This document shows, piece after piece, positions 3,810 through 30,023 of a stretch of DNA of 63,737 bases. A model generated the notes under the pieces. That model was not told where the DNA came from. It saw nothing but the letters and a program-made list of their open reading frames with translations, and made no database searches. Source of the stretch: Ignavibacteria bacterium RIFOXYB12_FULL_35_14 (GTDB lineage Bacteria > Bacteroidota > Ignavibacteria > Ignavibacteriales > Ignavibacteriaceae); contig MHAR01000069.1 of NCBI GenBank assembly GCA_001803045.1, positions 1 through 63,737 on the forward strand, read 5' to 3'. A program made the translations under genes and the position numbers. Position 1 is the first letter of the stretch. Each line of letters begins with the position of its first letter.

Positions 3810-6710
3810 TTACTTCATTAAAATTAATTTTTTGGTTTGCACAAATTCGCCTGCTTTTATTCTAAAGAAATATACGCCGGAGGCGTATCCGCCTCTGGCG
3901 GAAACTCCGCTCGAAAGATAGTTAGCATCGAAGATTTCTTCGTAACTTCCTGCAGGTCTTTCTTCATCAACAAGTGTTGCAACCTCATTTCCAAGTACAT
4001 CGTAAACCTTTAAAGATTGCCAAGTGCTTACTGGTGACTGCCAACTAATTTTGGTAGTTGGGTTGAATGGGTTTGGATAATTTTGGTATAAAACAAATTC
4101 TGTGGGCAGGGTTGTTTCTGTCTCAACATCAGAAGGAAGAAAACCGGGCTGTTTGTATTTGACAATGCTCCATAACCACTCTTCGCCTGCTTTGCTGCTG
4201 TAACCAGCTACTACAACGTTTCCGGAATTATCAACTAAGAGATCAGTTGCTGTATCCTGATAATTCAATAAATCGAAATTTATTTCCCACTGTTGCACGC
4301 CTTGCTTGTTGTACTTGATTGTGGAATATTCAGCATTGTTATTGCTGTAACCGGCAACATAAATATCGCCTAAATGATCAAGAGTAACATGATATGCAAC
4401 ATCGCTGCCGTTTGATTGACCATTGTAAGGGACTGCCCATTGCTGTTCACCGATAGAATTATATTTTACTGTTGTGTAATCGTTATCTGTTCCCATTCCC
4501 TGACTAATTCCTGTTACATATACATTCCCATCTCCGTCAACAGCAATATCGTTTGCATAATCATATGAGCTTGCAGGATCATCCCATCTTGCAGACCATT
4601 GTTCAACACCGGAAGAATTATATTTTACAGTTGCATAATCTGAATTGGTTGTGTTTCCAAAACTCCATCCGGTTACAAATACATTACCTGAATTATCCAG
4701 TGACATAGAACTTACCAGATCACCATCGTTCGCGAGTCCGTTATATCTTTTTACCCATTCTACATTTCCTGAAGGATTATATTTTATAGTTACATAATCA
4801 TAAAGCGATCCTGTACTGTCGCTTGTACCAACAACAAATACATTACCGGATAAATCAATTTCAAGACCCTGTGCAAGGTCATTACCATCTGCTGAACCAT
4901 TATATCTTTTTACCCATTGAAGTTGACCCAAGTTATTATATTTAATTGTTGCAATATCGTAACTAGTATTGGAACCTAAACTACTACCCGAAACATATAC
5001 ATTACCGTCTGCATCAACACTAATGTCTCCTGCAATATCTGAATAAAAAGCAGGAGAATTGTAACGTACTACCCACTGCTCATTTCCAGAGGAGTCATAT
5101 TTTATTGTTGCAAAATCAAAATCAGTACCTATTCCCTTACTTCCGCCGGTAACATATACATTTCCTTCGCTGTCGATTTCAATATCATTAGCTTGGTCTG
5201 CCTCGTTAGCTGGTCCGTTGTATGTTCTTATCCATTTTATTTTCCCGGATGAATCACATTTCATTGTAATATAATCCCACATAGATTGATTTAATCCGCC
5301 AAAGCCAGCTATATAAATATTCCCCTCAGAGTCTTCCTGTATAGAAGTTGGCTGGCTAAAACTTTTAAAATTTGAAACCCATTGCTGATTGCCATTGCTA
5401 TTATTTAATTTGATAATTTCCGGATAATTTCCAACGCCTGAAGAATTGCCAACCGCCACGTACAAATCACCTGAATTATCTAATAATATCACTCTTCCAA
5501 GTGTACTAGTATAAGTCTGGTTATCATGGCTGTTAACCCAAAGTTGAGCACCTGAACTGTTATATTTTATAGTAACTGCATTATATTCAAAAGGTGACGG
5601 ATCGCTGTGACCTGTAATATATATGTTCTCATCAGCATCAATTTTTATATCGTTTGGCCTATCATGTAATCCACCGTTATAAAGGCTTTCCCATTGAAAA
5701 TTTAGTGAAGAATTAAACTTCACCGTTGAATAACCTCCATTTAACTCTTGGGAACCTGTTACATAAACATTTCCCAGTGGGCTTACGACCATTCCTCTCA
5801 TTTCCAAAGGAGAATTATAAGTAGTCCCTGCGCCTGAACCATTGGGATTGAATTTCCAAATTGTATAACCTATGGGTCCATATGGAGGACTAGGATTATA
5901 ATTAGTGCCTCCGACAAAAATCCATCCTGAATTATCTAAACCAATGAATTGGGCGTATTTAATTTGTGCCGGAGAGCCGGCAATTCTAGTCCATTGTTCA
6001 ACCCCTGCAGAGTCGTATTTAATTGTTAAAAATTGAGTAGAAGTTGTATATGTCTGGCCGGCGACATAAACATTACCTGAATTATCAACAGTCAAAGCCT
6101 TTCCTTCGTCATCATAAAGATTGGAGTCTACATAAGTGCTTTTCCATTGCATAACCCCATCCGAATTATATTTAATCGTTGTAGCGTTAGTATAGAATTG
6201 ACTCTGTTCGTGATTGGCCCCAGTCACATATACATTTCCAGCATTATCCACAAATAAATCGTTTATCCAATCCATGTAGTCGGCAAGACCGTTATAAGTA
6301 TTTACCCATACCTGCTGTCCTGAAGGATTGAATTTTATTGTTAAGTAATCACTATTATTATTACCAGTGTAAGTTAAGCCAGCGACGTAACAGTTTCCTT
6401 CATTATCAATTTCTAAATCATCAGCTACATCTTGGTTTGTATTTGCTGGTCCATTATAGACAGCAATCCATTCAACTAAAAAACTAGTCGAAACTATTTT
6501 CATTAAAAAAATATCAGCATTCCCTGTATTCTCGTATATAGTCCCCGTTAAATAGATATTCCCTGTATTATCTTTTCCCATATCAACTATGTTTATATTA
6601 TTGAAGTCTAAAAAAGGCGGAAAATTTAAAGTCCAAGCTTCTTCAACTGAAGTTTGGGAATAAATTATTGAATAACTGACAAGAATTAAAAAGATTAGAA
6701 AACGTTTCAT
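3810..6710 (-). CDS. SBBP-repeat beta-propeller protein with T9SS sorting domain (copy 1)
   Basis: This 966-residue protein has a signal peptide (about 1-18) followed by some 15 repeats of about 50 residues with the SBBP signature DxxGNVYVTG...DYxTIKYNSSGxxQWVxxYNG. SBBP repeats form beta-propellers, and no enzyme motif is visible, so a surface or binding role is inferred. The C-terminal T9SS type A domain carries a 10-residue in-frame insertion next to LSSGV, encoded by two abutting 15-bp palindromes at 3873-3902 (see separate entry). It is the third and last of three tandem SBBP paralogues, separated from the one upstream by 34 bp. The junction sequence closely matches the next SBBP junction, which points to tandem duplication. 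Confidence 0.9.
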   Translation of the reverse strand: MKRFLIFLILVSYSIIYSQTSVEEAWTLNFPPFLDFNNINIVDMGKDNTGNIYLTGTIYENTGNADIFLMKIVSTSFLVEWIAVYNGPANTNQDVADDLEIDNEGNCYVAGLTYTGNNNSDYLTIKFNPSGQQVWVNTYNGLADYMDWINDLFVDNAGNVYVTGANHEQSQFYTNATTIKYNSDGVMQWKSTYVDSNLYDDEGKALTVDNSGNVYVAGQTYTTSTQFLTIKYDSAGVEQWTRIAGSPAQIKYAQFIGLDNSGWIFVGGTNYNPSPPYGPIGYTIWKFNPNGSGAGTTYNSPLEMRGMVVSPLGNVYVTGSQELNGGYSTVKFNSSLNFQWESLYNGGLHDRPNDIKIDADENIYITGHSDPSPFEYNAVTIKYNSSGAQLWVNSHDNQTYTSTLGRVILLDNSGDLYVAVGNSSGVGNYPEIIKLNNSNGNQQWVSNFKSFSQPTSIQEDSEGNIYIAGFGGLNQSMWDYITMKCDSSGKIKWIRTYNGPANEADQANDIEIDSEGNVYVTGGSKGIGTDFDFATIKYDSSGNEQWVVRYNSPAFYSDIAGDISVDADGNVYVSGSSLGSNTSYDIATIKYNNLGQLQWVKRYNGSADGNDLAQGLEIDLSGNVFVVGTSDSTGSLYDYVTIKYNPSGNVEWVKRYNGLANDGDLVSSMSLDNSGNVFVTGWSFGNTTNSDYATVKYNSSGVEQWSARWDDPASSYDYANDIAVDGDGNVYVTGISQGMGTDNDYTTVKYNSIGEQQWAVPYNGQSNGSDVAYHVTLDHLGDIYVAGYSNNNAEYSTIKYNKQGVQQWEINFDLLNYQDTATDLLVDNSGNVVVAGYSSKAGEEWLWSIVKYKQPGFLPSDVETETTLPTEFVLYQNYPNPFNPTTKISWQSPVSTWQSLKVYDVLGNEVATLVDEERPAGSYEEIFDANYLSSGVSARGGYASGVYFFRIKAGEFVQTKKLILMK
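3873..3902. repeat. Paired 15-bp palindromes inserted in frame in the sorting domain
   Basis: Two perfect palindromes abut: TACGCC-GGA-GGCGTA (3873-3887) and TCCGCC-TCT-GGCGGA (3888-3902). Together they are exactly 30 bp and add 10 codons between LSSGV and YFFRIKAGEF of the T9SS domain. All other sorting domains in the window lack residues at this exact point. The 15-bp unit recurs at 18689-18718 and, with ends changed to ACCGCC/GGCGGT, between genes at 21408 and 21470. Confidence 0.85.
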
Positions 6711-9667: not shown

Positions 9668-11605
9668 TCATTTCATTAAAATTAATTTTTTAGTTTGCAC
9701 AAATTCTCCTGCTTTTAGTTGATAGTAGTACACACCGCTTGACAATTGATGACTGCCGGCTGCTTGTCCGCCTTTAGTGGAAAATTCAACTTCGTAATTT
9801 CCAACAGGTTTGTACTCATCTACTAAAGTTGCAATTTCATTTCCAAGGACATCAAAGACTTTTAAGGAGACATAACTACTTACTGGTGACCGCCAACTGA
9901 TTTTTGTACTTGGATTAAACGGATTGGGATAATTCTGGTTGAGGCTATAATTAGCAGGAATTGGTCCTTCTCCTAAAATAATACCAACTGGATTAAATGT
10001 TGTATCTAATGCGACATTTGAATAATCAGAATTTCCGGCTGTGTTGTACGCATAGATTCTGTAATAATAGACCTTATTACCTGATAAGTTGGTATCGGTA
10101 TAGGTTACAATATTTTGAGCTACAGAATCTATTGACAACCAGTTCGTGTCTGCATTTGTGCTTCTCTCCACTTTAAATCCTATTTCATTCTTCGAAGTCT
10201 CTATCCAAACAAGCTCTATTGTACTTGCTGAAACTGCTGTTGCGGATAAATCATTGGGAGTATTGGGAGATTGGATATACTTTATTGTAGCGTAATCATA
10301 ATTCGATACGCTTCCTATACTCAGACCTGTCACATATACATTACCAGTGCTATCTACTGCTATTGAATTAGCCTGGTCTTCTTTATTTCCTGATCCATTG
10401 TAAGTTTGAAACCACTGAAGAACACCTGATGGATTGTATTTTATTGTGGCATAATCATCACTTGTACCGCTGATAAAACTATACCCTGTCACATACACAT
10501 TACCCGAACCATCGGTGGCAAGTGAATTTGCATAATCATAGCTATTCGCCGATCTATCATATTTTTGAATCCATTGCTGAACACCGGTTAAATTATATTT
10601 TATTGTTGTATAGTCACTTTTTGTTCCGGGTCCCGGACTACTACCTGTCACAAACACGTTTCCTAAACCATCTAATGCTATTGAAGCAGCAAAATCATTA
10701 TTACTTCCTGGAGAGTTATATCTTGATACCCACTGCTGAATACCTGAAGAATTAAATTTAACCGTAGCATAGTCATAATCAGTAAAGATCGAACGGCTAT
10801 ATCCAGTCACATATACATTGGCTGAATCATCCAATACATGAGCCGTGACAATATCATTATAACGTTCTGGTCCATTATATTTTGCCACCCATTGTTGGGT
10901 ACCTGAGGAATTGTATTTTATTGTAGCGTAATCTAAAAGATTTCCACTATCATCTATGCTACCTGTTACATAAATATAACCCGAATTATCGATTGAGATA
11001 AAATATTTTATCTCAGTATTTATTTTTTGTGAATTGTACCTTTTAACCCACTGCTGGGCACCTTCAGAATTATATTTTATTGTAGCACAAGCATCACTAG
11101 ATAATCCCAAACTTATACCTGTCACATAAACGTTACTAAAACCGTCTATAGCAATTGAAGTTGCAAAATCATCATAACTTTCTGGTCCGTTGTACCTTGC
11201 TACCCACTGCTCAACTCCTAGTGTGTTGTATTTTATCGTAGCATAATCATCTAGCGTCCCATTTCCTCTGGAACTGCCAGTCACATATACATTACCAGAA
11301 TCATCTACCACTATTGAATTTGACTTATCTATACGATTTCCTGGTCCGTTATATCTTACAGCCCACTGCTGGATACCTGCAGAATTATACTTTACAGTGG
11401 CATAGTCGTAATTAGTTCCATCACCTACACTCTGGCCTGTGACGTACACATTACCCAAAACATCTACGGTTACTGAATTTGCTCGATCCGCAGCATTTAC
11501 AATTCCGTTAAACATTTGAATCCATTCTACATTAACCTGTGAATAAACTATAATATTGTAGAGAAGTATTACCAGAGCTGTAAGTGTTGTTTTCATTCTA
11601 TTCAT
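9668..11605 (-). CDS. SBBP-repeat protein with fibronectin III and T9SS sorting domain (copy 3)
   Basis: This is a 645-residue shorter paralogue. It has a signal peptide (about 1-22), about nine SBBP repeats (NVYVTGxSxGxGTxxDYATIKYN), a fibronectin type III domain (about 450-540, PNDLSATAVSASTIELVW...YYYRIYAYN) and a T9SS type A domain. The loop before LSSGVYYYQL is extended (STKGGQAAGSHQ). The DNA for that stretch includes a degenerate TCCGCC-TTT-AGTGGA palindrome at 9767-9781, which suggests an old insertion like those in two other genes. It is the most upstream of the three tandem SBBP genes, and 13 bp separate it from the upstream peptidase gene. No catalytic residues are seen. Confidence 0.9.
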   Translation of the reverse strand: MNRMKTTLTALVILLYNIIVYSQVNVEWIQMFNGIVNAADRANSVTVDVLGNVYVTGQSVGDGTNYDYATVKYNSAGIQQWAVRYNGPGNRIDKSNSIVVDDSGNVYVTGSSRGNGTLDDYATIKYNTLGVEQWVARYNGPESYDDFATSIAIDGFSNVYVTGISLGLSSDACATIKYNSEGAQQWVKRYNSQKINTEIKYFISIDNSGYIYVTGSIDDSGNLLDYATIKYNSSGTQQWVAKYNGPERYNDIVTAHVLDDSANVYVTGYSRSIFTDYDYATVKFNSSGIQQWVSRYNSPGSNNDFAASIALDGLGNVFVTGSSPGPGTKSDYTTIKYNLTGVQQWIQKYDRSANSYDYANSLATDGSGNVYVTGYSFISGTSDDYATIKYNPSGVLQWFQTYNGSGNKEDQANSIAVDSTGNVYVTGLSIGSVSNYDYATIKYIQSPNTPNDLSATAVSASTIELVWIETSKNEIGFKVERSTNADTNWLSIDSVAQNIVTYTDTNLSGNKVYYYRIYAYNTAGNSDYSNVALDTTFNPVGIILGEGPIPANYSLNQNYPNPFNPSTKISWRSPVSSYVSLKVFDVLGNEIATLVDEYKPVGNYEVEFSTKGGQAAGSHQLSSGVYYYQLKAGEFVQTKKLILMK

Positions 11606-16788: not shown

Positions 16789-17267
16789 GACTGAATTCCA
16801 ATTAAGATTTTAAAAATGACTTGGCTGAATATACTAAATGAATAAACATGAAGGTGGGAGTATCGTGACATTTAATACAAGTAAGACTCACCTAAAAACC
16901 GGAAGGCTTAGTTAAGGTGATCCTCACTTGAACATATTTTTGTAGTTCCGCCGTTTGCGTATCTTTTTTCGGAACGACCACCACCATAGGCGGTCAGGAG
17001 GAGGTCGTTCCCAACGGTACGTAATTATGAACTACATACAGGAATACGCAAATAATCTATTGCAGTTTGCTTCAGCAAACTGAATGTGATAAAACATAAA
17101 ATAATTCGGACTTTAGTCCCATTTACAAATTTTATGTGGCTGAAACCAGATGATTATTTACTGATTTTGTTAGTTAGATAAATCTGACTGCAATAGATAA
17201 GAAAGTATTGAATTAAAATTCTGTATAGTAAAATCTGTGGCAGAACACTTGGGTCATTTTATTCATT
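16789..17267. other. Gene-free stretch rich in hairpins
   Basis: No coding region is seen. It holds a nested inverted repeat of about 100 bp: TGTAGTTC (about 16941) pairs with GAACTACA (about 17029), TTTGCGTAT with ATACGCAAA, and innermost the GGAACGACC/GGTCGTTCC element at 16971-17011. A separate perfect hairpin CAGTTTGC-TTCA-GCAAACTG lies at 17063-17082. Confidence 0.5.
16971..17011. repeat. Nested GC-rich palindromic element
   Basis: The outer arms GGAACGACC (16971-16979) and GGTCGTTCC (17003-17011) enclose ACCACC-ATA-GGCGGT (16980-16994), a near-perfect 15-bp palindrome followed by CAGGAGGA. Its layout matches the two nested elements beside pdxJ (21399-21439 and 21461-21501). Confidence 0.75.
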
Positions 17268-18515: not shown

Positions 18516-18545
18516 AGTAAGGACACGATGCATCGTGTCCCTACA
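18516..18545. repeat. 30-bp palindromic element (CACGATGCATCGTG core), intergenic copy
   Basis: A perfect 20-bp palindrome GGACACGATGCATCGTGTCC lies at 18521-18540, extended by a CTACA tail and an imperfect matching AGTAA arm to 30 bp. The same element, with two compensated base changes, is inside the esterase gene at 28798-28827. It is followed by TTTCACG direct repeats and a CCCCGAA/TTCGGGG hairpin (18571-18589). Confidence 0.8.
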
Positions 18546-18598
18546 ATTTCATTTCACGTTTCACGTTTGACCCCGAAATAAATTCGGGGCAGGCAGTT

Positions 18599-20986
18599 TC
18601 ACCTTAGCAGGATCATCTTCTTCGTTTCGATGAAATTGCCTGCTCTAATCTGGTAGAAATAAACTCCGCTTGACAGTGATGAAGCATTTCCGCCAAAGGC
18701 GGATCCGCCTCCGGCGGAAAAATCTATTGAGTGATAGCCAGCTTCTTTTTCTTCATTCAACAAAATTTTTATTTCTTCTCCGAGTATGTTAAGTACAGAT
18801 AATCTTACATTTCCTTTCTCTGAAATTCCAAATCCTATTGTTGTTGTTGGATTAAATGGATTAGGATAGTTCTGCTCAAGCTTGTAAGTAGTAAATGGAC
18901 TCCAATTAACTTCCACTGTTTGTGAGTACTCATACTTTCCTCCGAAGTCTATTTGCTTGAGCCGATAAAAATATTTTCCAGCATCTGAAAGTTTATCAAT
19001 GAAGGTGTAATTGTTTGGAGAAGTAGTTGTACCATGTCCTTTTACAGAACCAACTGTCATAAAATCATTCGAGCCAAATTTTCTTTGTACTTCAAATCCT
19101 CGGTTGTTAAGCTCTGTTGCAGTTGACCAGTTTAGTGTTACTTCTTTTTCGTTGGCTGTGGCTTTGAATGATGTTAGTTCAACTGGTACAACACCACCAT
19201 TGTTGGTTTTTAATATTGTCCCGCCACTACCCACAATAATGGCGCAATTTTTATCAATAAATACAACAGAGTAAAGCGTATGCGAAGTATTACTATTCTG
19301 ATTCAACCAATTTAATCCACCATCTGAAGTTTTAAGAATAGTACCATATGGTCCCACAGCAAGGCCATTGTTTTCGTCATAGAAAGAAACACTGCTAAGC
19401 CTGTAGAATGTTCCACTAATCTGCCTCACCCAATTTCTTCCTCCATCCATTGTTTTGAGAATGATCCCCCCATCCCCCACGACAATACCTACATCTGTAT
19501 TTAAGTAACAAACTCCTGATAATGCCTCGATAGTCCCGCTATTCTGCAAATCCCAATGTTGCCCTCCATCTGTTGTTTTCAGAATAGTTCCATTTTCACC
19601 TACAATAGTAGCATTTTCTGGATTGATGAGAATGACTCCTTTAAGGTGAGTGTTTATACCACTAGATTGGACATTCCAATTTTGACCTCCGTCTGTCGTT
19701 TTGAGTATAGTGCCATGGTCTCCGACCACCATTCCATTATTACTATCATAAAAATAAACATCACTAAGCGACATAGAAATTCCACTGTTTTGCATTGTCC
19801 AATTTTGTCCGCCATCCGTAGATTTTAATATAATGCCATTTTCCCCTACAATTGTGCAATAATTTGAGTTAATGTAAGAAACTCCTGCGAGATTTTTATT
19901 AGTTATATGATTCAGTTCATTCCAGTTATTTCCTCCATCATTTGTTGTAAGAATTGTCCCATTATAACCAACTGCAATTCCTGCTTCTCGCCCCGAAAAA
20001 GAAACTGCATAAAGATAATAATTTGTTCCCTTAGTTTGATTAATCCAGCTTTCTCCACCATTCGTTGTTCGATAAAGAATGCCTAAATCGCCAACTACAA
20101 TACCATTATTGGCATCAGTGAAACACACACCACGAAGCCAATAATTAGTATTACTTGTAATTTGATACCAGTCATATCCGCTATCTGTAGTTTTAAATAT
20201 GGTTCCATCATAACCGACAATAAATCCATTTAATGAATCACTAAATGAGATAGCATTTATATGTTTAGTTACTTGATTTACTCGATTTGTCCAGGTTAGT
20301 CCACCATCAGTTGTTTTTAAAAATGTACTACCGCCAACAGCGACTCCATTCAGTGTATCGGTGAAAGTAACAGCTGTTAGAGAGACTTTCATAGTGTCAA
20401 TTCGGTCAATCCATTTTTCTCCTCCATCAGTGGTTACAAGAATCGTTAAATATCCCGCGATTACAGCGAAATCTTTGCCCACACATGAAACTGAAGAAAG
20501 GTAGGATGATGTACCACTTAGCTGCTTGATCCATGATGTACCTCCATCTGTAGTCTTCAGAATTAAACCTTCATTTTTTTCAAGATCCCGGCCGACTATT
20601 AGTCCATTATTATTATCCCAAAATGATGCGCCAGAAAAAAGTGTATAACTGCTATATGGCACTATTATCCAACTTTCTCCTCCACTTGAGGTTCGAAGAA
20701 TTGTACCTTCATCTCCTACGGCGATTCCCGTAAAAGTATCAACAAAATGAACAGATATTAAACGAGTACTTAAACCACTATGTTGTAGCATCCAGTCAAT
20801 GCCACCATTTGTCGTCTTTAATATTGTTCCATCATCTCCTACAGCCCAACCAACTTCCGAGTTGACAAAATCTACTGAATTGAGAGTGTTTCCTTGCGGT
20901 AATGGATTTTGCCAAAACCATTGCGCATAAAGGTTTGAAAAGTTAATTGTGAAAAATAATATCAGGAGAGCAACAGTTTTTTCCAT
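18599..20986 (-). CDS. YCF48/BNR-type propeller protein with T9SS sorting domain
   Basis: This protein of about 795 residues has a signal peptide (MEKTVALLILFFTINFSNLYAQ) and about 13 repeats of about 45 residues with the pattern SVxFxDxNxGxxVGxxGTILKTTDGGxxWxxQ. These are typical of YCF48-like and sialidase-type (BNR) propellers. A fibronectin-like linker (ELTSFKATANEKEVTLNWSTATELNNRGFEVQRK) and a T9SS type A domain follow. The start was moved to the ATG at 20986 because GAGGGG lies just upstream and the signal peptide begins there; an in-frame ATG at 21043 would add 19 residues. A 30-bp double palindrome (18689-18718) adds 10 residues to the sorting domain. Confidence 0.88.
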   Translation of the reverse strand: MEKTVALLILFFTINFSNLYAQWFWQNPLPQGNTLNSVDFVNSEVGWAVGDDGTILKTTNGGIDWMLQHSGLSTRLISVHFVDTFTGIAVGDEGTILRTSSGGESWIIVPYSSYTLFSGASFWDNNNGLIVGRDLEKNEGLILKTTDGGTSWIKQLSGTSSYLSSVSCVGKDFAVIAGYLTILVTTDGGEKWIDRIDTMKVSLTAVTFTDTLNGVAVGGSTFLKTTDGGLTWTNRVNQVTKHINAISFSDSLNGFIVGYDGTIFKTTDSGYDWYQITSNTNYWLRGVCFTDANNGIVVGDLGILYRTTNGGESWINQTKGTNYYLYAVSFSGREAGIAVGYNGTILTTNDGGNNWNELNHITNKNLAGVSYINSNYCTIVGENGIILKSTDGGQNWTMQNSGISMSLSDVYFYDSNNGMVVGDHGTILKTTDGGQNWNVQSSGINTHLKGVILINPENATIVGENGTILKTTDGGQHWDLQNSGTIEALSGVCYLNTDVGIVVGDGGIILKTMDGGRNWVRQISGTFYRLSSVSFYDENNGLAVGPYGTILKTSDGGLNWLNQNSNTSHTLYSVVFIDKNCAIIVGSGGTILKTNNGGVVPVELTSFKATANEKEVTLNWSTATELNNRGFEVQRKFGSNDFMTVGSVKGHGTTTSPNNYTFIDKLSDAGKYFYRLKQIDFGGKYEYSQTVEVNWSPFTTYKLEQNYPNPFNPTTTIGFGISEKGNVRLSVLNILGEEIKILLNEEKEAGYHSIDFSAGGGSAFGGNASSLSSGVYFYQIRAGNFIETKKMILLR
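18689..18718. repeat. Paired 15-bp palindromes inserted in frame in the sorting domain
   Basis: TCCGCC-AAA-GGCGGA (18689-18703) abuts TCCGCC-TCC-GGCGGA (18704-18718); both are perfect. They encode the extra 10 residues GGGSAFGGNA between IDFSA and SSLSSGVYFY. Size, structure and insertion site parallel 3873-3902 in an unrelated cargo gene. Confidence 0.87.
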
Positions 20987-21095
20987 ATTTGGCCCCTCAG
21001 AATAATTTTGAAAAATGTTTAATACCGTAGATGAACTTAGCAATAACTTTTTAATTGGAAAACATCATTGTCGTATCATTTCAATTTCTTCCTTT

Positions 21096-21218: not shown

Positions 21219-21227
21219 CCCTTGTAG

Positions 21228-21398: not shown

Positions 21399-21439
21399 GG
21401 AACTGCCACCGCCAAAGGCGGTCAGGTCCTGGCAGTTCC
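21399..21439. repeat. Nested palindrome between pdxJ 3' copies
   Basis: The outer arms GGAACTGCC (21399-21407) and GGCAGTTCC (21431-21439) enclose ACCGCC-AAA-GGCGGT (21408-21422) plus CAGG and the TCCT loop. Compared with 21228-21249 it carries a 19-bp insertion in the loop. Confidence 0.82.
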
Positions 21440-21460: not shown

Positions 21461-21501
21461 GGAATGACCACCGCCAGAGGCGGTCAGGAGGAGGTCATTC
21501 C
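21461..21501. repeat. Nested palindrome abutting the pdxJ stop codon
   Basis: GGAATGACC (21461-21469) and GGTCATTCC (21493-21501) enclose ACCGCC-AGA-GGCGGT (21470-21484). The flanking CCCTACA tail of this element family supplies the TAG stop of pdxJ (21502-21504), so the element has probably replaced the native end of the gene. Confidence 0.82.
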
Positions 21502-25870: not shown

Positions 25871-26107
25871 TATTTGCATCTTACCCATTTTTACTACATC
25901 TCAGAAAAAATTACAAGATAAAAGTCCATAGAACCACATAGTGGCAGGCACTAATGACCCGGATTCAGCCAGAGGCTGATGAATACGCTGATTTAAGCAG
26001 ATTTCAATCTGTGTTAATCTGTTTCATCAGTGTTATCTGTGTGCTATTGATTAAAAAATGGCACTTGCTTTGCTAAAATCACTGCAAATTAAACCTCATA
26101 ACAAAGA
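25871..26107. other. Non-coding gap with word-like repeats
   Basis: There is no gene. From about 26000 the sequence repeats variants of AATCTGTGTTAATCTGTTTCATC, a low-complexity dispersed text often seen between genes. The promoter of the ABC exporter should be here but is not clear. Confidence 0.4.
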
Positions 26108-28622: not shown

Positions 28623-30023
28623 TTATTTAACTAATAACATTTTCTTCACACTAATAAAATCTCCTGCTCGTAATTCATAGAAATAAGTTCCGCTGGATAA
28701 ATGATTGGCGGAGAATTCAACTTCATATTTTCCAGCGGGTTTATGCTCATTCACCAGAGTAACCATTTCATTTCCAAGCACATCATAAACAATTAATTGT
28801 ACGGGCACGATGCATCGTGCCCCTACACATGGGACAGAATATTTTATTTTTGTAGATGGATTAAATGGATTCGGATAGTTTTGCAAAAGCTCAAAATTAT
28901 TCGGTGATTGTGTGGTAAAAATATTTTCAATACCAGTTACCCATCCCATTTTATCACTTATATGATCAGCAAGGTTTTGACCCATTATCAAATGATGGCG
29001 CACTCGCGGATGCTTAGTCCAAGCCGGATCAAATGGGAAAAAGAAAGTAGTGATGTTTGTATCATTATCTGCAGCGTGTACAAATTGAACAGCACTTTCA
29101 ATATATCCCGGCCAGGGTGATCCAACTTTTGTTGCATCCATACTTCCTAATGAACAAACAATAAAAGCATTCGGATGCCTGCTGCGAATTGTACGAATAA
29201 AATCAACATAAGCAGCAACTCGTTGAGATGAATCTGGAACTGGGTTTAGGTTGCCAATCAGCCAACTGTCATTTTGAAGAAGATTTATTACAACTACATC
29301 GGGAATGTATTCGTCAAAATTCCAATTGCTTGCGGGATCATCAGGATTGAGACGATAATAATATTCGGGCATAATAAGAGGGAACCAGCTAATCATAATA
29401 CCGATTCCACTTTTTGCAATACACATATAATCAGCATCCAATAAGCGTGAGGTGATTGCACCATAAGCTAAAAAATTATTTTCTTGCGACATTTTATCAT
29501 CGGTACCGCTATCGGGTGCTTCGTTGCCCATACCGCAAGTGATTGAATTTCCATAAAACAAAATTTTATGCGCAGGTCTCACTGGCGGTTCAACCAAAGT
29601 TTTTCCATCATTAATCTGAATACCTAAAAATATTGTGGGACCTGTGGATGCTTCGGTACGACGAAAGAGAAGAAGACTGTGTACTGTATCTGTAAGTACA
29701 GCTGAAATAAGATAGATTTGACTTCCTGCATTGCAATCAATGAAATGAGGGTGCTCGTAATCTTCATCTATAAAAACATTATAATAGGATTGCCCAGTTT
29801 GATCATCTAACATAAGTATGAGTAAGGAACCCTCGAAATTAGCGCTTATGTAAGTACCGGGCCAATAAATTACCGGTTTATCTGGAACTGAATAATCAAT
29901 CCTGCCGGTATATTGAAAATTTGGATTGTCAGCTTTTATAGTTGTAACTCCGAACAACTCCGAAATAGAACAAAAAACAAATATTGCAACTATATACGTA
30001 GCATTTAGTTTTTTTCTAAACAT
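28623..30023 (-). CDS. CE2-like SGNH carbohydrate esterase with T9SS sorting domain
   Basis: This 466-residue protein has a signal peptide (about 1-25), a beta-sandwich (about 35-140, QYTGRIDYSVPDKPVIYWPG) and an SGNH hydrolase domain (about 150-365), the two-domain layout of carbohydrate esterase family 2 acetyl esterases. The catalytic Ser160 lies in GNSIT (normally GDSIT), Asn251 in LLQND and His338 in TKHPRVRHH. A T9SS type A domain follows. Its loop contains residues encoded by a 30-bp palindrome (VGARCIVPV) that is repeated between genes at 18516. Likely job: removing acetyl groups from polysaccharide outside the cell. It is the last gene of the 33992-28623 run of secreted proteins. Confidence 0.85.
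   Translation of the reverse strand: MFRKKLNATYIVAIFVFCSISELFGVTTIKADNPNFQYTGRIDYSVPDKPVIYWPGTYISANFEGSLLILMLDDQTGQSYYNVFIDEDYEHPHFIDCNAGSQIYLISAVLTDTVHSLLLFRRTEASTGPTIFLGIQINDGKTLVEPPVRPAHKILFYGNSITCGMGNEAPDSGTDDKMSQENNFLAYGAITSRLLDADYMCIAKSGIGIMISWFPLIMPEYYYRLNPDDPASNWNFDEYIPDVVVINLLQNDSWLIGNLNPVPDSSQRVAAYVDFIRTIRSRHPNAFIVCSLGSMDATKVGSPWPGYIESAVQFVHAADNDTNITTFFFPFDPAWTKHPRVRHHLIMGQNLADHISDKMGWVTGIENIFTTQSPNNFELLQNYPNPFNPSTKIKYSVPCVGARCIVPVQLIVYDVLGNEMVTLVNEHKPAGKYEVEFSANHLSSGTYFYELRAGDFISVKKMLLVK
28798..28827. repeat. 30-bp palindromic element inside the esterase gene
   Basis: The palindrome has GGGCACGATG/CATCGTGCCC as its perfect 20-bp core, with TGTA and CTACA ends and one mismatch overall. 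It is 30 bp, so it adds 10 codons without shifting the frame. It sits in the loop before the QLIVYDVLGNE strand of the T9SS domain. An intergenic copy is at 18516-18545. Confidence 0.85.

Follow-up and report, generated by a model that had tools for sequence, protein, structure and literature searches.

Rickettsia is the main source of known in-frame selfish palindromes; REPs provide further cases elsewhere among bacteria. As they have been described, Rickettsia palindromic elements (RPEs) are palindromic repeats of approximately 100-150 bp (PMC3767692, PMC2229807) that are found between genes as well as in frame within conserved ones, and different elements can lie near one site in orthologous genes (PMC3767692). 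Both RPEs and intragenic REPs are by now established (PMC3767692, PMC2229807, PMC2635572, PMC3733652). REPs are short palindromes found as singles and dimers, some of them within genes including those of tRNA synthetases; the GTAG/CGTC REPs measure 20-40 bp and carry a terminal tag, with 20-30 residues for dimers or grouped repeats, and CGTC repeats have been reported in Chlorobi and Bacteroidetes (PMC3733652). The main text of that report makes no mention of Ignavibacteria or Melioribacter (PMC3733652). The Correia, ERIC and YPAL MITEs, too, include small repeats that have become joined in frame to genes (PMC2229807). The open-licence literature searched gave no account of in-frame palindromes in Ignavibacteria.

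The repeat reported here, from Ignavibacteria bacterium RIFOXYB12_FULL_35_14, is a 15-bp unit with arms TCCGCC/GGCGGA around a 3-bp loop, present either single or as an abutting pair. Like RPEs, such palindromes are found between genes as well as inside conserved genes, in frame and with orthologues that lack them (ValS, Kbl-like, HsdM and MenB-like genes), and different elements occur near one site in orthologues, as in the ValS gene of locus L171. The Rickettsia parallel drawn in the original prediction is therefore apt, since these are short palindromes in frame in many genes with empty orthologues, yet RPEs, compared here by description, belong to another lineage and are far longer (approximately 100-150 bp as opposed to 15 or 30 bp). 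With the GTAG/CGTC REPs the repeat shares its short palindromes, its singles and dimers and its presence inside genes including those of tRNA synthetases; however, it is untagged, its inserts comprise 5 or 10 residues rather than 20-30 and, unlike GTAG REPs, no exact copy flanks a Y1/RAYT gene at the nine Y1 loci of this genome. Small repeats in frame within genes also recall the Correia, ERIC and YPAL elements, but MITEs measure approximately 100-200 bp and most have terminal repeats and target duplications, neither of which was seen here. To our knowledge, no mobile repeat is as short as this 15-bp unit.

The window, by which we mean the whole stretch of 63,737 nucleotides that was analysed (contig MHAR01000069.1), contains two double palindromes in frame on the reverse strand, at the positions originally proposed. 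The first (3873-3902) consists of TACGCCGGAGGCGTA at 3873-3887 abutting TCCGCCTCTGGCGGA at 3888-3902. It reads SARGGYASGV and lies in the T9SS type A C-terminal sorting domain (CTD; 3822-4079, reverse strand; TIGR04183 35.9 bits, above the cut-off; PF18962 26.5 bits, slightly below the cut-off of 27) of P0001, a cargo protein assigned by Pfam to the SBBP beta-propellers (3810-6710, reverse strand). The second (18689-18718), made of 18689-18703 and 18704-18718, each of the TCCGCC type, reads SAGGGSAFGG and lies in the corresponding domain (18611-18868, reverse strand; TIGR04183 37.9 bits, PF18962 32.9 bits) of P0002, whose cargo is a YCF48-like propeller in Pfam (18599-21043, reverse strand). 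As had been anticipated, the host proteins otherwise differ and each double adds ten codons. These codons are missing from most other CTDs, from the P0001 orthologue L377 in genome G171 (61% identical) and from the neighbouring P0001 paralogue in the window, and the P0002 loop at 18689 has 16 residues, compared with 6 in 67 and 11 in another 21 of the 105 insert-free CTDs readable by the loop pattern. The two inserts were thought to occupy one site, but they occupy two: that of P0001 follows LSSGV, inside SGVYF (LSSGV-SARGGYASGV-YF), and that of P0002 follows DF, upstream of LSSG (DF-SAGGGSAFGG-NASSLSSGVYF). A relative predicted in a third cargo gene, P0003 (9668-11605, reverse strand), is indeed degenerate; it reads STKGGQAAGS at 9752-9781 (reverse strand) in the CTD, only 9767-9781 passes a search allowing two mismatches, and the loop has 8 residues more than the usual 6, counted by eye. 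Two further palindromes, GGACACGATGCATCGTGTCC and CCCCGAAATAAATTCGGGG, lie downstream of P0002 at 18521-18589 of the window.

Across the 4.10-Mb genome, TCCGCCN3GGCGGA has 45 exact sites and its reversed control none; with up to two mismatches the counts are 205 and 16, and the window alone holds 10 such matches compared with a shuffle mean of 0.38. The reversed control and the shuffles rule out base composition as the source of the palindromes, and the expectation that they exceed chance is thus borne out genome-wide. TCCGCC also stands out among arms at loop length 3 in the DNA fetched from this genome (G000), a sample that contains some runs of N and from which a GC content of approximately 36% was estimated. 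The second commonest loop-3 arm in that sample is AAACCT N3 AGGTTT, with 12 copies.

Where the palindrome has diverged, its two arms have tended to change together. Among the sites of the fetched sample with exactly two mismatches, a set enriched in CTDs, 16 of 25 carry paired, complementary arm changes, which argues that the palindrome itself is kept or restored; the reversed control gave one two-mismatch site, its changes unpaired. In the window, the search with up to two mismatches and comparison of the arms revealed paired changes in both arms of the variants ACCGCCAAAGGCGGT (21408-21422) and ACCGCCAGAGGCGGT (21470-21484), and a third, TCAGCCAGAGGCTGA (25965-25979), outside ORFs of at least 80 aa, has them in both arms as well; all three are given on the forward strand. 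Palindromes that arose where they now stand, through template switching at near-palindromes and not by movement, would also yield paired arm changes, and the several unrelated palindromes in CTD loops fit such an origin. It is nevertheless highly improbable, given identical arms at 45 sites in a sampled genome of approximately 36% GC and empty sites at which no near-palindrome was seen by eye.

By crude ORF calls (at least 80 aa), called CTDs hold 10 of the 45 exact copies and other ORFs 13, the remaining 22 lying outside any ORF. REPs in the broad sense are dispersed short palindromes, single or dimeric and mostly intergenic; the repeat is dispersed, with singles and dimers, but only those 22 of its 45 exact sites are outside ORFs. 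Four CTD copies added by eye (C22:13791, the pair C53:77325 and 77340, and C67:6747, the last in a sorting domain without a long ORF) bring the number in CTDs to 14. The 150 called CTDs, each extended by 36 bp, make up 0.99% of the genome, so that 10 or 14 of 45 copies represent a 22- or 31-fold excess, where an abutting pair contributes two copies and the 0.99% leaves out the domains that were added by eye. Coding copies are in frame 0, encoding SAxGG, in 19 of 24 cases in this genome and 17 of 20 in genome G140 (crude calls), and some of the others are probably in spurious ORFs; one frame-2 copy (C39:104872) lies in a gene that we take from its sequence to be WecB-like. A restriction of the target to the secretion signal, as originally suggested, is wrong because other genes carry copies, among them those of tRNA synthetases, metabolic enzymes and restriction-modification systems, and 22 of the 45 copies are outside ORFs of at least 80 aa. 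A presumably restriction-methylase-like gene (L116, C50:30956-33205) contains two exact palindromes whose starts are separated by 42 bp, with a glycine-rich stretch around them.

Within the sorting domain the inserts fall in particular loops. The host domain matches TIGR04183 and the description of T9SS type A sorting domains; the sole PDB sequence match at E 0.01 is a T9SS substrate domain (Por secretion CTD), and the fold matches are weak, none with E of 0.001 or below, T9SS domains (8glk, 8gl8, PorZ, mirolase) being mixed with unrelated beta sandwiches. Predicted CTD models have six strands; strands 4 and 5 flank the P0002 insert (residues 51-60), whose residues 53-58 have pLDDT below 50. 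In the 150 called CTDs, a set without the uncalled domains at C22, C53 and C67, perfect GC-rich hairpins number 12 in the strand 1-2 loop (3.1 kb) and 10 in the strand 4-5 loop (5.4 kb), that is, 22 in 8.5 kb compared with 1 in the remaining 29.4 kb; the C61 hairpin, among the 12, adds no length and may be due to chance. The strand 1-2 loop holds palindromes of other sequence, such as CCCCTCTTGGGAGGGG, GCCTGACGGCAAGGC and GGGCACGATGCATCGTGCCC, the last found by the hairpin search in a CTD of the window (28635-28877, reverse strand) within CVGARCIVPVQ. A further insertion point, NPF|NPT or NPS, has doubles in C53 and in two genes of G189. Several unrelated hairpins in CTD loops and nearly none elsewhere in the domain agree with the earlier suggestion that the loop tolerates changes in length. 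Extra residues (PANGG and similar) were also observed in the last hairpin loop, strands 5-6, of the CTDs L053 (C6:104054) and L394, those of L053 being encoded by the palindrome CCCGCCAACGGCGGG.

Both the enrichment in CTDs (22- to 31-fold) and the filling of the same points in genomes G000, G140, G161, G171, G189 and G208 could mean that the CTD loop is the specific target of an insertion machinery, or that the inserts serve secretion. We consider this very unlikely, as unrelated palindromes occupy another loop of the same CTD, many copies of the palindrome lie elsewhere, and two ValS orthologues carry different palindromes at one site, which points to tolerance.

Alternatively, the sorting domain may be copied as a DNA module along with its inserts, so that few insertion events lie behind the many hosts. 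The genome has 150 CTDs, and those of C45, C62 and P0002, all with an upstream double, have a C-terminal module in common (64% identical). On a CTD tree built by a quick search from 79 columns and 146 of the 150 domains (four excluded by length), the 15 insert-bearing CTDs need 12 changes, compared with a mean of 14.5 and a minimum of 11 for shuffled labels, and a single clade for the four doubles at the downstream site (site 2) is not rejected (p-AU 0.47), so these may share one origin. A single clade for the six upstream-loop doubles, however, is rejected by the AU test (p-AU 0.013). The first tree constrained to one clade for these scored 152 log units below the unconstrained tree, and constrained trees begun at six further starts, themselves built from the unconstrained tree, came out 170-181 log units below it; an unconstrained search started afresh had not converged after 270 s. 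The upstream doubles therefore probably reflect repeated insertion or recombination, with the qualification that the rejection comes from 79 columns and a quick search and could be mimicked by recombination between domains. The original proposal of a copied module may hold for the downstream doubles and is probably not the full account of the upstream ones, and since module copying cannot account for the ValS, Kbl-like, HsdM, MenB-like or ProS-like inserts, we regard it as distinctly unlikely to explain the palindromes in general.

Those inserts outside the sorting domains have orthologues with empty sites. In the valyl-tRNA synthetase ValS (PF00133, PF10458) a 30-bp double lies in frame between QWFMSM and AGLAEPAL, and the site is without insert in 77 of the 78 loci printed by a motif search; the set comprised 80 loci from named genomes, L219 and L236 not being printed, and the relatives include Ignavibacteriales, Melioribacter and unplaced Bacteroidetes records. 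The ValS gene of L171, from an Ignavibacteriales genome, has a different in-frame palindrome, CAGACTC AGGA GAGTCTG, at the same site. The Kbl-like gene (aminotransferase I/II in Pfam) shows a net gain of 12 bp over its orthologues in G162 (94% identical) and G169 (92%), and HsdM the same gain over L332, L333 and L335, the alignment with L334 being ambiguous. The MenB-like gene of G140 (enoyl-CoA hydratase in Pfam) has TCCGCCTCAGGCGGA where its two closest relatives have GAA, and the insert is absent from the 22 other rows printed out of 24 loci, L415 not being printed by the motif search. Furthermore, the ProS-like gene of G140 has four codons more at SASGG than that of this genome, and at SASGG the HemN-like gene of G208 exceeds that of G140 by four codons; the names Kbl, MenB, ProS and HemN are our assignments from the sequences. 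The HemN-like gene of G140 (L272) was rejected as a further insertion, its SADGG aligning free of gaps with SGEGG in G208. The expectation of orthologues without the insert thus proved correct, with empty sites for P0001, ValS and the Kbl-like, HsdM, MenB-like and ProS-like genes, and the first five of these rule out a shared ancestral loop. Separately, apparently truncated tRNA copies with the palindrome in the D-loop region were observed in two different genomes (L154:1469-1625 and L459:1485-1570), each closely followed by an intact tRNA (Met, Arg). The suspicion that functional tRNA genes had been hit (C89, L459) was discarded, since ARAGORN finds the intact neighbour only and the palindrome-bearing copies look truncated.

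The lengths of the inserts follow an unexpected rule. In the upstream CTD loop all 11 doubles listed have 16 residues compared with the usual 6, and singles have 10 residues in 11 cases and 7 in five short ones; the list consists of hand-typed strings, some of them related to each other, and the degenerate P0003 and C67 loops (14 residues by eye, a gain of 8) are outside it. The singles in the Kbl-like, HsdM, MenB-like, ProS-like and HemN-like genes each add four codons. Among the cases measured, doubles thus add 30 bp and singles 12 or 3 bp, and no single adding 15 bp was seen, contrary to the multiples of 30 bp that had been expected. These net gains of singles are not predicted by plain insertion. 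That the loop triplet is the original target codon, giving the gain of 12 bp, is unlikely because TCA, the loop of the MenB-like and ProS-like inserts, is also a common intergenic loop. A bolder reading would make the repeat a minimal mobile palindrome with a fixed length rule (a pair adding 30 bp, a single exchanging 15 bp for 3 bp), implying a dedicated mechanism, and would cast the CTD loops of these bacteria, at least a hundred, as landing pads on which several unrelated families build up, diversifying the secreted proteins; we hold this combination to be conceivable but rather doubtful. Short-patch double illegitimate recombination was considered as a route, on which the open-licence literature searched gave only unrelated papers.

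As for what might move the palindromes, a RAYT- or IS200-type tyrosine transposase acting in trans, as proposed for REPs, would suit palindromes with abutting dimers, which are typical of REPs, and the genome has nine Y1 transposase matches. One of these (L169, C12:27820-28200) resembles a REP-associated tyrosine transposase (RAYT; 73.6 bits, below the cut-off of 80), and the REP pairs beside it contain TTCCGCCG and CGGCGGAA, which are close to the palindrome arms. CCTG, a possible weak tag, adjoins 4 of 21 intergenic copies in this genome and 3 of 6 in G140. Against this, no exact copy was found in the fetched flanks of the nine Y1 loci, where L168 and L169 each have a match with two mismatches, that of L169 being part of a REP repeat; the RAYT-like gene is flanked by GTAG-tagged GTAGGGAA...TTCC repeats, a REP arrangement of other sequence; and neither GTAG nor CGTC adjoins any of the 45 exact copies of this genome or the 26 of G140. 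No target-site duplication was visible in the pairs aligned, and the singles in the Kbl-like, HsdM and MenB-like genes lose 3 bp. With no mobility machinery found tied to the palindrome at the nine Y1 loci examined, movement by such a transposase appears unlikely. The repeat of the L169 type occurs once more in the window, at 21224, with a related sequence at 16946.

The palindrome is patchily distributed. Counting this genome, 49 of 158 genomes in the phylum sample have a copy, and in the family sample 44 of 61 do, with a range of 0-47 and 3 copies in the one genome of the same genus. In-frame CTD copies recur in G140, G208, G161 and G189. In G066, 26 of the 28 exact copies examined fall outside ORFs of at least 100 aa, and their flanks recur in the manner of longer repeats; in G019 one of four distinct copies examined is in frame 0 of a 165-aa ORF, and in G039 none of four copies is in frame 0. 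As the copies of these three genomes are mostly not of the in-frame kind, the arms by themselves are not enough to define the element.

Taken together, the palindrome occurs far above chance, is patchy across related genomes, stands in frame in many genes and is missing from the orthologues compared. We put at roughly three in four the probability that the palindromes are copies of a very short, dispersed element akin to REPs and RPEs, which inserts widely and persists in coding DNA wherever SAxGG can be tolerated. Such an element would have been copied to many places, and its coding insertions would then have passed through selection, so that those remaining mostly read Ser-Ala-x-Gly-Gly and lie in tolerant loops; T9SS CTDs would dominate among the hosts because there are approximately 150 in the genome, with several tolerant loops. 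The paired arm changes could result from hairpin-templated repair or from selection on the hairpin. Some CTD copies may instead descend by duplication, as the site-2 doubles (p-AU 0.47) and the module of C45, C62 and P0002 suggest.

The finding means that a form much shorter than the RPE marks conserved enzymes as well as a secretion domain present in many copies, in a group whose named relatives are mostly metagenome-assembled. The filled and empty orthologues provide many natural insertions for studying short DNA added to intact proteins, and the length rule offers a testable clue to the spread of a 15-bp repeat. They also carry a warning, in that a SAxGG stretch of such a protein can be DNA-derived rather than a conserved motif.
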